Of a stretch of DNA of 5,824 nucleotides, positions 1-5,730 are shown piece after piece. A program made the translations under genes and the position numbers. Each line of letters begins with the position of its first letter. The first letter of the stretch is position 1. Below the pieces are notes generated by a model that saw only the letters and a list, made by a program, of their open reading frames with translations, had not been told where the DNA came from and did no database searches. The stretch spans positions 1-5,824 of the forward strand of contig WJIO01000299.1 in the NCBI GenBank assembly GCA_014730235.1, in the 5' to 3' direction. This stretch comes from Candidatus Poribacteria bacterium (GTDB lineage Bacteria > Poribacteria > DTPJ01 > WJIO01).

Positions 1-276
1 CTTTACGGCGACTCGGCAGATTTTGATTTTTCTCCATATTTCGGCACTATGGATTTTGTGCTTGTGGATGGTTCTCATTCATACGAATATGTATTGAGCG
101 ATACGGATAACGCCTTAAAATTATTGAAAAACGGCAAAGGAATAATACTCTGGCATGATTATGGCCATTGGGATGGTGTTACGAAGGCACTGAATGAGCT
201 TTATGAGAGTTCCGAGGTTTTCAGGAGTTTAAAACATATTGATGGAACTTCTCTGGTTTGCTTCAAGAACCCATAA
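1..276 (+). CDS. Class I SAM-dependent methyltransferase, C-terminal part (5' truncated by window edge)
   Basis: The frame is open from base 1 to the TAA at 274-276, giving 91 visible residues, so the start lies outside the window; the ATG at 49 is internal. Visible landmarks are the beta-strand and loop FVLVDGSHSYEY (about residues 19-30), an Asp-rich helix after it (SDTDNALKLLK), and the strand plus loop ILWHDYG (about 50-55). This pattern of hydrophobic strand, DGxHxYE, D, then HDY is typical of the Methyltransf_24 type of small-molecule methyltransferase. Members often sit in polysaccharide clusters, where they are thought to methylate sugars. The N-terminal SAM-binding glycine loop is not in the window, so methyl donor binding cannot be checked. 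The substrate is unknown. The gap to the next gene is 26 bp, which suggests co-transcription. Confidence 0.8.
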   Translation, partial: LYGDSADFDFSPYFGTMDFVLVDGSHSYEYVLSDTDNALKLLKNGKGIILWHDYGHWDGVTKALNELYESSEVFRSLKHIDGTSLVCFKNP

Positions 277-288
277 TTTACACTAATG

Positions 289-303
289 GTAATCGTTAAA
301 AAA
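289..303 (+). repeat. 15-nt repeated motif GTAATCGTTAAAAAA, copy 1, at a gene start
   Basis: The 15 bases GTAATCGTTAAAAAA occur here and again exactly at 2977-2991. A one-mismatch copy of the first 14 bases lies on the minus strand at 5753-5766. This copy ends on the A of the ATG at 303, so it occupies the place where the ribosome binding site of the next gene would be. It could be a small dispersed repeat, part of a larger repeat family, or a protein binding site. Nothing in the sequence decides between these. Confidence 0.5.
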
Positions 304-1541
304 TGAAAGATCCGCTTAAAATTTTGTTTGTTTCCCCCACCATACCATATCCCCCGCTGGACGGCGGCAGGATAAGGGTTTTAAATGTTATCAGTCGCCT
401 TTGTCGGGGTAATGATCTAACATTTCTGGCTTTTGCCCATCCTGTTGATGATAAAGATGGGGTGGATTATCTTAACAATCTGAATATGGAAGTGGTAACA
501 GTGGAATCCCCTGATTCCGGAACAAGTGATAATATTTCCGGGCTGTGGAGAAGCTTTATTCATAGAAAACCTTTTACTGTGGCTAAATATTATTCCAAAG
601 AGATGGTTAATACCTTATCGGATTTACTAAACTCCGGGGATTTTGACTTGGTTCATTTTGAGATGATACATACGGGTCAGTTCCTGTTTTTGCTGAAGAG
701 AATGCCACAATGCGTAACGGTTCTGGGACAACAAAATGTTGATTCAGGTATATGGTACAGGCTGGCTAAGAATGAATTTAGCTTCTATAAAAAAAGCCTT
801 TATCTATATCAATATGGGCAGTTTGCGGATTATGAAAACAGGATATGCAGTGGTTTTGATCTTTGCACCTGTGTTTCTGAGGAAGATAAACAAAGGTTGA
901 TTAACTTGTGTCCCGATGCTAACATTGAAGTTATTGAAAATGGTGTTGACCTGGAATATTTTAAACCCTTCGATGAGACGGAAGAAAGACAGCGCATAGT
1001 CTTTACCGGCAGTATGGACTGGCAGCCTAACGAGGATGCGGTAATTCATTTTTGTAAAGATATTTTACCCATTATACAGGATAAATTTCCTGACGTGGAA
1101 TTTTACATTGTAGGCAGCAAACCTACTCTACGAGTTCAGGAACTGGATAAAATATACGGTGTAACAGTAACCGGGTCTGTTGAGGATGTAAGGCCTTATA
1201 TTTCCAGCGCGTCGGTTTTTGTTGTGCCTCTGAGAATAGGAGGTGGTACAAGGCTTAAAATACTTCAGGCCCTGGCTATGAATAAGGCGACAGTTTCCAC
1301 CAGCGTAGGGGCTGAGGGACTGGGGCTGGAATCGGGTAACCATATTATGATTTCGGATAGTCCGGATGAATTCGCTGAATTTACTGTTAATCTAATGAAA
1401 GATGATGAACTTCGTTATAGTTTGGCCAATACAGGCAGAGATTTTGTCAAGGAGCGTTATAGCTGGGATGTGATCGTGTATAAAATGGAGACAGAATATA
1501 GGAAAATCATTGATAAACATAAAAAGCTTGACAAGGCTTGA
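303..1541 (+). CDS. GT-B glycosyltransferase, GT4/stp1-like (exosortase-locus type)
   Basis: The 412-residue protein has two Rossmann-like halves and no membrane segment. The N-terminal acceptor half opens with KILFVSPTIPYPPLDGGRIR (residues 6-25), the Pro-rich plus Gly-Gly start typical of this family. The C-terminal donor half starts after ENGVDLEYFKP (212-222) and carries FTGSMDWQPN (234-243), DVRPY (295-299), PLRIGGGTRLKIL (309-321) and VGAEGL (335-340). These match the Glycos_transf_1 fold and the TIGR03087-like sugar transferases known from PEP-CTERM/exosortase loci. The protein should transfer a sugar from a nucleotide donor to a lipid-linked glycan at the inner membrane face; the sugars are unknown. 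The family glutamate in the KILEA(M/L)A donor-site motif is Gln322 here. The ATG at 303 is the first possible start, because an in-frame TAA lies at 297-299. No good Shine-Dalgarno sequence is seen; only GG occurs at 288-289. The neighbour at 1656 is a paralogue. Confidence 0.88.
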   Translation: MKDPLKILFVSPTIPYPPLDGGRIRVLNVISRLCRGNDLTFLAFAHPVDDKDGVDYLNNLNMEVVTVESPDSGTSDNISGLWRSFIHRKPFTVAKYYSKEMVNTLSDLLNSGDFDLVHFEMIHTGQFLFLLKRMPQCVTVLGQQNVDSGIWYRLAKNEFSFYKKSLYLYQYGQFADYENRICSGFDLCTCVSEEDKQRLINLCPDANIEVIENGVDLEYFKPFDETEERQRIVFTGSMDWQPNEDAVIHFCKDILPIIQDKFPDVEFYIVGSKPTLRVQELDKIYGVTVTGSVEDVRPYISSASVFVVPLRIGGGTRLKILQALAMNKATVSTSVGAEGLGLESGNHIMISDSPDEFAEFTVNLMKDDELRYSLANTGRDFVKERYSWDVIVYKMETEYRKIIDKHKKLDKA

Positions 1542-1655: not shown

Positions 1656-2834
1656 ATGAAAATATTATATATTAGTTTAAGGTTTCCTTATCCACCGCAC
1701 AGCGGCGACAAGATAAGAACCTATAATATTCTAAAGCATCTCTCCCAGAGGCACTCGATTTCTTTCATCTCTTTTGTTCAGTCTCGCCAGGAAGCTAACC
1801 TCTCCAAACACCTGTTGGAATTTTGCCACCAGGTAAAAACTGTTGAATTCAGCAAGATCAGAGCTTATTGGAACTGTCTGGCGTTCTTTTATTTTTCAGA
1901 GCCTTTTCAGGTGCATTTCTGGTATTCTCATGAAATGCAGCAGCAAATAAACCGTATCCTGGAGTCAGGAGATTTTGATCTTATACATGTTCAATTTTTC
2001 CGCATGGCTCAATATGTGACAAGGTTTAACGGTATACATAAGATTCTGGATTCATGTGATTCTTATGCTTTGAATTTAAGCAGGAGGGCAAAGCTGGATA
2101 AGGGTATTAGCTGGCCCCTGCTGAAGGTGGAAGCCAGTCGAGTGAAAAATTATGAGACAGAGATCGCCCAGTGGTTTGACAGGGTGACGATGGTTTCTGC
2201 TCTGGACAGAGATTGTTTGCTTTCTGTAAATCCAAATATACCACTATCGGTAGTTCCTATGGGGGTTGATCTGGAATACTATAAACCTAATGATAAGGAA
2301 TATGGACAGAACCTACTTTTTACAGGTACTATAAAATATTTTCCCAATAAAGATGCAATCATTTATTTTTATAACGAGATTTTCCCGCTTGTGAAAGAAG
2401 CTGTTCCTGATGTAAAATTTTACGTTGTGGGTAATCGCCCACCTAAAACTATAAAGAGTCTTGAATCCAACGGCGATGTGGTTGTAACTGGCTGGGTGGA
2501 TGATGTAAGGCCGTATTTTCATAATTCGGCAGTATTTGTCTGTCCCCTTCGCTCTGGCTCGGGTATGCAGGCAAAGATCCTTGAATCTATGGCCATGGGT
2601 GTTCCTGTTGTTACATCCTCCATGGGGTTTGAAGCCCTTGATGCTGTTCCGGCCAGGGATATAATGGTTGCTGACGATGCTGAGGTTTTTGCTGAGTATG
2701 TGATAAAATTACTAAAGGACAGGGATTTTAGGAATAGGGTTTCATATAACGCAAGGAAGCTTGTGGAAGAAAAATATGGATGGGCTTCAGTTGTTAAGAT
2801 GATGGATGAGATATATGATGGTATTGTAAATTAG
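1656..2834 (+). CDS. GT-B glycosyltransferase, GT4/stp1-like, paralogue of the preceding gene
   Basis: The 392-residue protein has no membrane segment. It opens with KILYISLRFPYPPHSGDKIR (residues 2-21), the PYPP..GDKIR signature of TIGR03087-like sugar transferases of exosortase/PEP-CTERM loci. An acidic DSCDS motif (132-136) sits in the acceptor half. The donor half follows MGVDLEYYKP (202-211) with FTGTIKYFPN (222-231), DVRPY (283-287) and GSGMQAKILESMAMG; the conserved glutamate is Glu310. It aligns along its length with the gene at 303 (shared GDFDL, GVDLEY(F/Y)KP, FTG, P(D)V.FY(I/V)VG, DVRPY), so the two arose by duplication or are close family members. The active-site loop differs (GSGMQAK here, GGGTRLK there), which suggests different donors or acceptors. 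Function is inferred as chain extension of a lipid-linked polysaccharide; the sugar is unknown. No gene follows for 356 bp. Confidence 0.88.
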   Translation: MKILYISLRFPYPPHSGDKIRTYNILKHLSQRHSISFISFVQSRQEANLSKHLLEFCHQVKTVEFSKIRAYWNCLAFFYFSEPFQVHFWYSHEMQQQINRILESGDFDLIHVQFFRMAQYVTRFNGIHKILDSCDSYALNLSRRAKLDKGISWPLLKVEASRVKNYETEIAQWFDRVTMVSALDRDCLLSVNPNIPLSVVPMGVDLEYYKPNDKEYGQNLLFTGTIKYFPNKDAIIYFYNEIFPLVKEAVPDVKFYVVGNRPPKTIKSLESNGDVVVTGWVDDVRPYFHNSAVFVCPLRSGSGMQAKILESMAMGVPVVTSSMGFEALDAVPARDIMVADDAEVFAEYVIKLLKDRDFRNRVSYNARKLVEEKYGWASVVKMMDEIYDGIVN

Positions 2835-3041: not shown

Positions 3042-3091
3042 TTGTCATCCCTGCTTCAAGCTTTTTAAAAAGCTTGAAGCAGGGATGACAA
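3042..3091. repeat. 50-bp perfect palindrome
   Basis: The two 25-base arms are exact reverse complements with no spacer. The left arm begins TTGTCATCCCTGC and the right arm ends GCAGGGATGACAA; the centre is AGCTTTTTAAAAAGCT between 3066 and 3067. The next outward pair (3041 T with 3092 G) breaks the symmetry. The GTCATCCCTGC-type end resembles widely dispersed extragenic palindromes of proteobacteria. There is no T-run after the right arm, so a simple intrinsic terminator is unlikely, though the RNA hairpin could still stabilise or block transcripts in both directions. Confidence 0.9.
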
Positions 3092-3190: not shown

Positions 3191-4987
3191 ATGGGCTTGA
3201 AAATTCGATTTCGCCGTTACGTTTGGGTTTTGCTGGATATATTACTGGTGAATCTGGCTGTTTATACAGCTTACTTGATTCGCGGTACACTATATTTTGA
3301 TTCCCGCTGGAAAAATCTGCTTATGGAGGAATACATTGGACTGTTCTGGCAGATAACACTGGTTGTGGTTGTTGTACGGATCTGTATCTTTTATTTCTTC
3401 AGTTTGTATAAACCAGTCTGGCGTTACGCGGGTATTGATGAATTTCTGGATATATTGAAAGCTGTTACCCTGGGAACTGGTGTTTTTATTGTGATTATGT
3501 ATGTTTCCCGTCAACTTTTTTATTCAAGGGGGGTAGTGGCTATTGATTGGGTATTGAATCTTATTTTTATAAGCTTAACCCGGCTTTCCAGTAGAGTTTT
3601 CTACGAATATAAAACGCGAGCTTCATCGGGTCCCAGCATTAACGCCCTTATTGTGGGTGCTGGAAATGCAGGGCAAAACACTCTCAGGGATTTACGAAGT
3701 CAGACAAAAAAGCATTATATCCCTGTTGGGTTTGTTGATGAAGACTTAAAAAAGCAGGGAAAAAGCATAAACGGCGTGGAGGTTGTGGGAACGAAATTGG
3801 ATATTCCTGAGACTGTTCATTTGAGCAAGATTGACGAAATATTCATTACCGCAAGTCCCGCTTATAGTGATGATATGAAAGAGCTAATATCTAGCTGTGA
3901 AGCAACAGGAGCAAAAGTGAATGTAGTTCCGGATACAATAAGTTTATTTTCAGAGTCTACAGACTCAAAGAAAGTCCTGGTTATTGGTGGAGCCGGTTAT
4001 ATAGGCTCTGTTATGGTAAGAAAATTACTCCAAAGAGGGTATAGGGTCAGGGTTCTTGATTCTTTATTATACGGAGAGGAATCCATATCTGAACTCTACG
4101 ACAATCCAGGATTTGAATTAATCGTCGGTGATTTCAGGCATGTTGATACAGTGGTTCGTTCAGTAAGAGGCGTTGATGCTGTAATACACCTGGGCGGAAT
4201 TGTGGGAGATCCTGCATGCCAGCTTGATCCTGAATTTTCCATAGAAGTAAATGCGGCTGCTACCAGGATGATTAAAGATGTTTGTACCGGTTTTGGTATA
4301 AAGCGATTTATCTTTTCCTCTACATGCAGTGTTTATGGTGCGAGTAACGATATTCTGGATGAAGAATCATTGGTTAAGCCCCTGTCGGTATATGCCAGAT
4401 CCAAGGTGGATTCAGAGCGCATACTTCTGAATGGCTCAAACGGCAGTTTGTCCCCGACTATTTTCAGGATGGCCACAGTGTTTGGCCTTTCTCACAGGCC
4501 GAGATTTGACCTTGTGTTAAATCTGTTGACGGCAAAGGCGGCTCAGGGTGAGGATATTACCATTTTTGGCGGCTATCAGTGGCGACCTTTTATTCATGTT
4601 GATGATGTGGCCAAGGCCTTTATCACCTGTCTTGAATCTCCCCTGGACAAAGTTGGCCGTCAGGTCTTTAACGTTGGTGATGACAGCCTTAACTGCCAGA
4701 TATCCAAGCTTGGATATATGATATCGGATCTGCTTCCGGGATCGAAAGTAAAGCATCATAAAGACCTTACAGATGAGAGAAACTATCGGGTTAGCTTTGG
4801 TAAGATAAAAGAGACTCTGAACTTTAGATGTGACAGGACTATTCAGGACGGTGTTTCAGAAATCAGGGATGCAATACAAAATGGTTTAATCGAAGACTAT
4901 CGGGATGCTCGTTTCAGCAACTATCTATGGCTGGAAAGACAACCCAAAAAACGGGAAATACTATTCACCAATTCTCATTACGAATAG
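3191..4987 (+). CDS. Membrane-anchored fusion: WbpM/FlaA1-type N-terminus joined to an extended-SDR sugar-nucleotide epimerase/dehydratase
   Basis: The 598-residue protein has two clear parts. The N-terminus has four likely transmembrane helices (about 11-30, 49-70, 88-105, 115-131) with the family loop SLYKPVWRYAG (71-81). A first Rossmann domain follows (about 150-250: VGAGNAGQ at 155-162, then VGFVDED at 179-185), as in the large membrane dehydratases WbpM, FlaA1-like CapD and PglF. From about residue 260 comes a different extended SDR: GGAGYIG (266-272, NAD(P) binding), HLGGIVGDPAC (333-343), FSSTCSVYG (375-383), YARSK (401-405), then WRPFIHVDDVA and NYRVSFGKI. The apparent triad is Thr378, Tyr401, Lys405. 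WbpM-type enzymes normally continue into a VTGAGGSIGSE domain and lack the YxxxK tyrosine. The usual linker (the R-V-x-(I/V)-EDLLGR type) is also absent. The protein should modify a nucleotide sugar at the inner membrane face; the exact reaction is unknown. The next gene, a sugar transferase, starts 15 bp after the stop. Confidence 0.85.
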   Translation: MGLKIRFRRYVWVLLDILLVNLAVYTAYLIRGTLYFDSRWKNLLMEEYIGLFWQITLVVVVVRICIFYFFSLYKPVWRYAGIDEFLDILKAVTLGTGVFIVIMYVSRQLFYSRGVVAIDWVLNLIFISLTRLSSRVFYEYKTRASSGPSINALIVGAGNAGQNTLRDLRSQTKKHYIPVGFVDEDLKKQGKSINGVEVVGTKLDIPETVHLSKIDEIFITASPAYSDDMKELISSCEATGAKVNVVPDTISLFSESTDSKKVLVIGGAGYIGSVMVRKLLQRGYRVRVLDSLLYGEESISELYDNPGFELIVGDFRHVDTVVRSVRGVDAVIHLGGIVGDPACQLDPEFSIEVNAAATRMIKDVCTGFGIKRFIFSSTCSVYGASNDILDEESLVKPLSVYARSKVDSERILLNGSNGSLSPTIFRMATVFGLSHRPRFDLVLNLLTAKAAQGEDITIFGGYQWRPFIHVDDVAKAFITCLESPLDKVGRQVFNVGDDSLNCQISKLGYMISDLLPGSKVKHHKDLTDERNYRVSFGKIKETLNFRCDRTIQDGVSEIRDAIQNGLIEDYRDARFSNYLWLERQPKKREILFTNSHYE

Positions 4988-5002: not shown

Positions 5003-5647
5003 ATGTTAAAGCGAATTTTTGATATTTCTATATCCTTGGTTGCGCTGGCTCTGCTTGCGCCCTTTTTTTTTGTTTGTGCGGTGATTATAAAACTAACTTC
5101 CCGGGGGCCGATTTTTTACAGAGGGAGAAGAGTCGGCAAGGATGGCAAAATTTTTTTAATGCACAAATTCCGCAGCATGGTGGTTGATGCTGATAAAATG
5201 GGTACAGACCTTACTCCTCAAGGCGATCCGCGAGTAACAAAATTTGGCAAATTCCTTCGTAAGACAAAAATAGATGAACTTCCACAGATAATAGATGTAA
5301 TTAAAGGCGATATGAGCCTAGTCGGCCCCAGGCCCGAATCCCCCATGTATGCCCAGCATTATGATGAAAGGCAAAAAAGGGTTCTGGATGTATGCCCGGG
5401 CATTGTGGGGCCAACCCAGATAATATGCAGACATGAAGATTTAATACTTAAAGATAAGGAAGATCCAGATAAATACTACATTCGGGAACTAATGCCCAAA
5501 AAAGTTGAAATTGACCTGAATTATATAGACAACAGAAGTTTCTGGCTGGACATTCAGATATTATTGAAATCATTCTTTGTTGTGGTTATGGTAAAAAGTA
5601 ATAGAGATTCTATACATAAGCTTTTGGATGAAAAATCAATTTCCTGA
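5003..5647 (+). CDS. Undecaprenyl-phosphate sugar-1-phosphate transferase (monotopic, PglC/WbaP C-domain type)
   Basis: The 214-residue protein is the minimal catalytic form of the bacterial sugar transferase family. It transfers a sugar-1-phosphate from a nucleotide sugar to undecaprenyl phosphate, the first committed step of lipid-linked glycan assembly. Visible features are KRIFDISIS (3-11), a hydrophobic re-entrant helix with the breaking Pro20, [12 protein letters not shown] (34-45), KFRSM (55-59), DPRVT (75-79), the catalytic Asp91-Glu92 pair in [18 protein letters not shown] (102-112) and PGIVGPTQI (132-140). The long N-terminal membrane domain of WbaP or WcaJ is absent. The sugar specificity cannot be read from the sequence. 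The ATG at 5003 is the first possible start, since an in-frame TAA lies at 4997-4999; no Shine-Dalgarno sequence is seen, and translation may be coupled to the gene ending 15 bp upstream. A run of nine T (5063-5071) encodes the Phe-rich part of the re-entrant helix. Confidence 0.93.
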
Positions 5648-5663: not shown

Positions 5664-5730
5664 GCTAAAAATCTCCCGCGTTTCCTTATTAAGGGGAAAT
5701 AATAGGTTTCGCCCATTAAGGGAAAAAGGG
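5664..5730. repeat. Second, degenerate copy of the intergenic repeat
   Basis: This matches the core of the 2872-2970 element in the same orientation: GCTAAAAATC, then CCTTATTAAGGGG, then GCCCATT, then GGAAAAAGG. The spacing is nearly the same, with small insertions and substitutions. The outer inverted ends are not recognisable here, so the copy is decayed or truncated. Together the two copies flank the fusion gene and the sugar transferase gene. No terminator T-run follows, and no other gene is seen in the 148-bp spacer 5648-5795. Confidence 0.55.

Follow-up and report, generated by a model that had tools for sequence, protein, structure and literature searches.

Gene content and organization of the locus

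The window analyzed here is an entire 5,824-base contig from a 451-contig draft genome of a poribacterium. All of its genes lie on the plus strand (Table 1) and comprise a truncated methyltransferase gene, two glycosyltransferase genes, a gene encoding an unusual two-part membrane protein (hereafter the fusion), and a small phosphoglycosyl transferase gene. The initial annotation placed the fusion at 3191–4987, and a reading frame with these limits is open throughout.

Table 1 Features of the window and of the fusion protein.
Feature	Position	Strand	Basis
Methyltransferase gene tail (Methyltransf_24)	1–276	+	Domain match
Second glycosyltransferase of the cluster	303–1541	+	ORF and domain match
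Glycosyltransferase family 4-type gene, upstream of the fusion	1656–2834	+	ORF and domain match
Fusion protein, 598 aa (4TM, PF13727 Rossmann domain, Cj1427-type extended SDR)	3191–4987	+	
Four transmembrane helices, residues 3–143	3197–3619	+	Hydropathy scan and AlphaFold2
PF13727 (CoA_binding_3) Rossmann domain, residues 148–247, with GAGNAG motif	3632–3931	+	Pfam, AlphaFold2
Short linker, residues 248–258, in place of the EDLLGR-type CapD/PglF linker	3932–3964	+	
Extended SDR domain, residues 259–575, closest solved relative Cj1427	3965–4915	+	
GGAGYIG dinucleotide-binding motif, residues 266–272	3986–4006	+	Invariant in alignment
T378-C379-S380, catalytic Thr present, Asp/Glu of 4,6-dehydratases missing	4322–4330	+	Alignment
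Y401-A-R-S-K405, SDR YxxxK catalytic pair	4391–4405	+	Alignment
Small phosphoglycosyl transferase (Bac_transf, 214 aa), 15 nt downstream of the fusion	5003–5647	+	Domain match

Two kinds of repeat were seen between the genes. A perfect 50-base palindrome, TTGTCATCCCTGCTTCAAGCTTTTT, with arms of 25 and no loop, occupies 3042–3091 between the second glycosyltransferase in gene order (1656–2834) and the fusion, and is terminator-like on the minus strand. Two 32-base direct repeats (2880–2911 and 5668–5699; 81% identical; ...CCTTATTAAGGGG...) are intergenic, flank the fusion–transferase pair on both sides, and resemble a dispersed small repeat.

Domain architecture of the fusion protein

Hydropathy, AlphaFold2, Pfam, and scores for the N-terminal module (N-module, residues 1–247) all confirm the four membrane helices and the WbpM/PglF-type first Rossmann domain that were initially annotated. 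AlphaFold2 places the helices at residues 3–33, 38–72, 82–110, and 113–143, a low-confidence membrane part with pLDDT of about 44–66. The Pfam CoA_binding_3 match spans residues 82–247 (E 7e-15), and pLDDT is 72–93 across most of the PF13727 Rossmann domain. The linker that follows has pLDDT under 50 at residues 249–257. The model was built with 25 sequences and is of good quality in both the Rossmann and the SDR domain, while with two sequences pLDDT was 41.

The C-terminal half is an extended SDR, with a Pfam Epimerase (PF01370) match over residues 262–496 (E 5e-46), a VIA-align fold match over residues 259–573, and the expected set of GxxGxxG, T378, Y401, and K405. The GGAGYIG, FSSTCSVYG, and YARSK motifs are all as first described. 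The PglF/WbpM/CapD UDP-sugar 4,6-dehydratases (PF13727 + PF02719) likewise carry four helices and PF13727 before an SDR and act beside a phosphoglycosyl transferase, but their SDR is of the Polysacc_synt_2 type, whereas that of the fusion is Epimerase-type with TCS and YxxxK, and a linker of ~38 residues of the EDLLGR kind is gone. The proposal that the catalytic domain had been swapped is upheld, with the Epimerase match scoring 157 bits versus 31 for a partial Polysacc_synt_2 match. The domain search likewise found no standard Polysacc_synt_2 domain at residues 260–570, the weak match covering 262–379 only, while a genuine member scored 392 bits. The EDLLNR/EDLLGR linker and the VTGAGGSIGSE start, reported as missing from the fusion, are indeed missing there and present in all 14 poribacterial CapD proteins read.

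The accompanying statement that WbpM-like enzymes have Met in place of the SDR Tyr holds, among these 14 poribacterial CapD proteins (from loci L012–L022 and L059–L082), for five, which read NPTSVMGASK, and not for the other nine, in which Tyr is kept where PglF/WbpM have Met and the motif is NPTSVYGxSK. Large phosphoglycosyl transferases (WbaP, WcaJ; TIGR03025) have the four helices and PF13727 in the same order as the fusion. Their transferase domain is in the same chain, whereas in the window the Bac_transf domain is absent from the fusion chain and encoded by the separate downstream gene.

Conservation and distribution of the fusion

An orthologue with 65% full-length identity is encoded on DTPJ01000504.1 from poribacterium SpSt-970, which belongs to the same order but another family. 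Both halves are in frame; the SDR is 74% identical between the two orthologues, the N-module about 53%, and the linker 36%. The neighborhood is conserved as well, the gene again lying between a glycosyltransferase gene and a phosphoglycosyl transferase gene orthologous to those of the window. The orthologue of the 1656–2834 gene lies directly before the fusion and overlaps it by 4 nt, and the phosphoglycosyl transferase, 67% identical to that of the window, is next in order after it. The initial annotation had suggested looking in other genomes for the same two-domain order next to a sugar transferase, and this second poribacterial genome provides both. The same three-part order also occurs in a Bacteroidota genome (L090), in a 664-aa frame with PF13727 and Epimerase scores of 34 and 144 bits.

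The membrane anchor and PF13727 module joined to an SDR are thus a genuine fusion gene. That the window is the whole of a 5.8-kb contig from a 451-contig draft might raise suspicion of chimeric assembly or of a recombinant that arose recently and has no function, but the junction is conserved in a separate genome at 65% full-length identity, which rules out a chimera: junction and neighbors recur in a genome from another family that was assembled independently, and the architecture recurs in Bacteroidota. We regard the chance of such an artifact as negligible. Nor is the fusion the rare recombinant once suggested, being fixed in two poribacterial families and recurring in a Bacteroidota genome.

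The fusion was found in two of 84 poribacterial genomes. In the other poribacterial genomes PF13727 proteins are mainly ~470–510 aa or ~640–700 aa long, and those read from these size classes are transferases and CapD dehydratases, respectively. The fusion is the only PF13727 protein of either genome that bears it, which is suggestive only as both are drafts. Sampling covered 84 poribacterial, about 300 Bacteroidota, and about 400 Pseudomonadota genomes and one Bacteroidota class, and the large searches scored just a few candidates per genome, making rarity approximate. A profile search of genome contigs with the single protein gave no match; a two-row alignment recovered the orthologue. Viral contigs gave no match to the full protein or to the N-module; with the SDR family they yielded 47 loci, and none of the 29 reading frames read from these carries the membrane module. 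We found no published PF13727–Epimerase fusion in the open-access literature searched.

Origin of the membrane module

The N-module is of the CapD/PglF/WbpM kind, judging from scores of 119–149 bits to poribacterial CapD/PglF N-modules versus 36–66 to large phosphoglycosyl transferases, with identities of about 29–36% and 21–27%, respectively. Two trees place it sister to poribacterial CapD with support of 92/85 and 93/86. A wider tree keeps it within the CapD/fusion/WecA side but does not resolve the sister relation to CapD. Direct replacement of the dehydratase domain of a CapD gene, as originally envisaged, is therefore plausible from the two trees, but the wider tree leaves the CapD grouping undecided. 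A TIGR03025 match to the N-terminal half of the fusion gene and the whole of the next gene hinted at insertion of an SDR within the gene of a large phosphoglycosyl transferase; we rejected this, the N-module being far closer to CapD.

SDR relatives with other front ends

Apart from the orthologue, the closest SDR relatives are 40–50% identical, and several carry different front ends. Haloarchaeal plasmids encode relatives with a CBS-like domain. Within the same SDR subfamily, at 40–48% identity to the fusion SDR, L042 (Bacteroidota) and L088 (ON073792.1, deposited as Aphanizomenon phage Yong-DA) have four helices and the SDR without a Rossmann domain, L043 and L048 (Bacteroidota) have a soluble PF13727-like domain (sub-threshold Pfam scores) and the SDR without helices, and L090 has all three parts. 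L042, L043, L048, and L090 are labeled Bacteroidota after the group searched, namely the phylum, order, or class to which a Balneolaceae genome belongs.

SDR and N-module trees agree on the sub-clades (fusion, orthologue), (L042, L088), and (L090, (L043, L048)). A simple reading of the last is that the helices were lost in L043 and L048. The trees are compatible with one fusion event for all three groups (N-module, AU p 0.16; SDR, AU p 0.12) as well as with several.

Members of the sub-clade of L090, L043, and L048 have arginine in place of the catalytic lysine (YARTR; YxxxR versus YxxxK). L088, a 42.6-kb circle, has genes like those for ParAB, Wzc, Wzy, and YbjH within the portion inspected, and appears more plasmid- than phage-like. 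Long open frames precede the SDR in L054, L173, and L174; these hold no recognisable module, look like GC-rich read-through, and were rejected as front ends. The module was also seen with other enzymes in Bacteroidota: two WecA-type PF00953 transferases (L111, 1327–3240, minus strand; L113, 142–2112, plus strand) have a C-terminal PF13727 domain, and in L105, L109, and L115 the module stands behind GT2 domains, two of the three keeping a partial transferase match.

Identity of the SDR domain

The closest solved relative by sequence is Cj1427, the GDP-D-glycero-D-manno-heptose C4-dehydrogenase of Campylobacter jejuni (6vo6, 6vo8), at 169 bits versus 125 for the next. Cj1427 also fills the first six rows of the Foldseek results, and VIA-align superimposes it with Z 40.1 and 1.6 Å over 301 residues at 36% identity, the next different protein reaching Z 37.4. 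The two proteins have the Thr/Tyr/Lys set in common. An ATVFGxSxRxRxDL motif is common, with small variations, to the fusion SDR, Cj1427, and the collected relatives, and is missing in the alignment from the other SDRs of the same genome, GalE-like ones included. Cj1427 differs from the fusion in lacking a membrane or PF13727 module, and the window contig has no heptose genes. The identity of only 36%, the GDP-heptose substrate of Cj1427, and its TNS where the fusion reads TCS count against the dehydrogenase reading favored below, and a shared fold does not by itself establish a shared activity. Cj1427 oxidizes C4 of GDP-manno-heptose with a tightly bound NADH that is recycled by α-ketoglutarate (PMC10680097).

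Genes adjoining the relatives offer further context. A DegT-type aminotransferase adjoins SDR relatives in haloarchaea, on enterobacterial (Pantoea/Klebsiella) plasmids, in Bacteroidota (L042, L044–L047, L049, and L090), and in one poribacterium (L023). On the viral contig IMGVR_UViG_3300028595_000141 (2498–4554), an SDR 49% identical to that of the fusion is followed directly by a DegT aminotransferase. This is a tailed-phage contig with a portal gene before the SDR–DegT genes, a phage-borne sugar-modifying pair. The plasmids, from Pantoea and Klebsiella variicola, carry an SDR–DegT aminotransferase–NUDIX–membrane protein cassette (L032, 7998–11485; L033, 8001–11548), the membrane protein of L032 being EamA-like.

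These comparisons make it quite likely that the fusion is a membrane-tethered NDP-sugar oxidoreductase other than a dehydratase. The Asp/Glu that follow the catalytic Thr are the acid-base pair of RmlB-type 4,6-dehydratases, and the fusion has Cys and Ser, respectively, in their place (TCS versus TDE). The initial annotation's title of membrane dehydratase is not supported on this point. A 4,6-dehydratase of the membrane whose catalytic domain is atypical would fit the PglF/CapD type of the N-module and the fold that RmlB and DesIV have in common with the SDR (Z 35–36), but with both acid-base residues missing at T378-C379-S380 and only a partial Polysacc_synt_2 match we judge it very improbable. 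A membrane-tethered UDP-sugar 4-epimerase (GalE/Gnu-like) could supply an epimer for the phosphoglycosyl transferase, and such a one-step enzyme needs no missing partner gene. UDP-glucose 4-epimerase (galE) is also the best, sub-threshold NCBIfam match (118 bits; cut-off 262), and UDP-GlcNAc and UDP-glucose 4-epimerases are close behind in the fold list at Z 35–37. Cj1427 outranks the epimerases by both sequence and fold, however, the ATVFG motif sets the SDR apart from the GalE-like SDRs of its own genome, and its nearest relatives are partnered by DegT aminotransferases, all of which leaves an epimerase rather unlikely.

Redox chemistry in either direction can use this fold and these residues, and C4-reductases are members of the same pathways as Cj1427 (PMC10680097), so the SDR could act mainly as a ketoreductase on a 4-keto intermediate made elsewhere. 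We hold this to be improbable, as the closest solved relative is a dehydrogenase and not one of the reductases, and no dehydratase gene lies alongside.

Predicted role in lipid-linked glycan assembly

On balance, we favor, as reasonably likely, a membrane-tethered NAD-dependent NDP-sugar dehydrogenase that feeds the adjacent phosphoglycosyl transferase. The four helices and PF13727 module would hold the enzyme at the membrane, presumably on the cytoplasmic side of the inner membrane, and the PF13727 domain may serve in feedback sensing by binding uridine nucleotides, by analogy with WbaP. Using T378, Y401, and K405 with NAD, the SDR would oxidize a ring hydroxyl of an NDP-sugar, most likely at C4, with no water eliminated. 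The keto-sugar might then be aminated or reduced by a partner enzyme, the resulting sugar phosphate loaded onto a lipid carrier by the next-door phosphoglycosyl transferase, whose adjacency was noted at the outset and is conserved in the second genome, and the lipid-linked sugar extended by the two upstream glycosyltransferases.

That the enzyme is specifically a C4-dehydrogenase whose product is aminated is a possibility we raise tentatively, by analogy with the DegT-linked relatives. Neither the 5.8-kb contig nor the part read of the 5.4-kb homologous contig carries an aminotransferase or nucleotidyltransferase gene, and for this reason the pathway is incomplete on both short contigs. This gap counts against the favored dehydrogenase reading, as do the sub-threshold galE match, the low confidence of the membrane part of the model, and the absence of the linker region that holds the dimerizing β-hairpin of large transferases. 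The fusion keeps the Rossmann GAGNAG without the CapD linker region, so dimerization, if any, may be through the SDR.

In the Pgl route, PglF is the membrane dehydratase, PglE the DegT aminotransferase, and PglC the transferase. We propose, by analogy, that the fusion performs the first step of a Pgl-like route by oxidation instead of dehydration, with a presumed DegT step to follow. The fusion would thus provide a membrane-bound parallel to the Pgl route, with oxidation of the sugar in place of dehydration.

Significance for the shared membrane module

WbaP dimerizes through its PF13727 domain, which also binds uridine nucleotides, and the enzyme is inhibited by UMP; those who solved its structure were puzzled by an N-terminal module common to two functionally unrelated enzymes, including PglF-like dehydratases (PMC10942596). 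Since a second poribacterial family and a Bacteroidota genome share the fusion, the anchor looks interchangeable rather than enzyme-specific. The module behind WecA-type transferases and GT2 domains, together with the SDR fusion, suggests a portable membrane and feedback module. As a speculation that may well fall short, the four helices and PF13727 could be a portable membrane chassis and uridine-nucleotide sensor on enzymes that control how sugars enter the assembly of lipid-linked glycans (transferases, dehydratases, WecA-type transferases, and Cj1427-type dehydrogenases), with fusion to the dehydrogenase having happened more than once. Conserved and represented in two phyla, this third and chemically different partner of the module offers a natural experiment on the shared-module puzzle. 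If the PF13727 domain of the fusion likewise proves to bind uridine nucleotides and to lower activity, the job of the module would be membrane placement and feedback, not catalysis.
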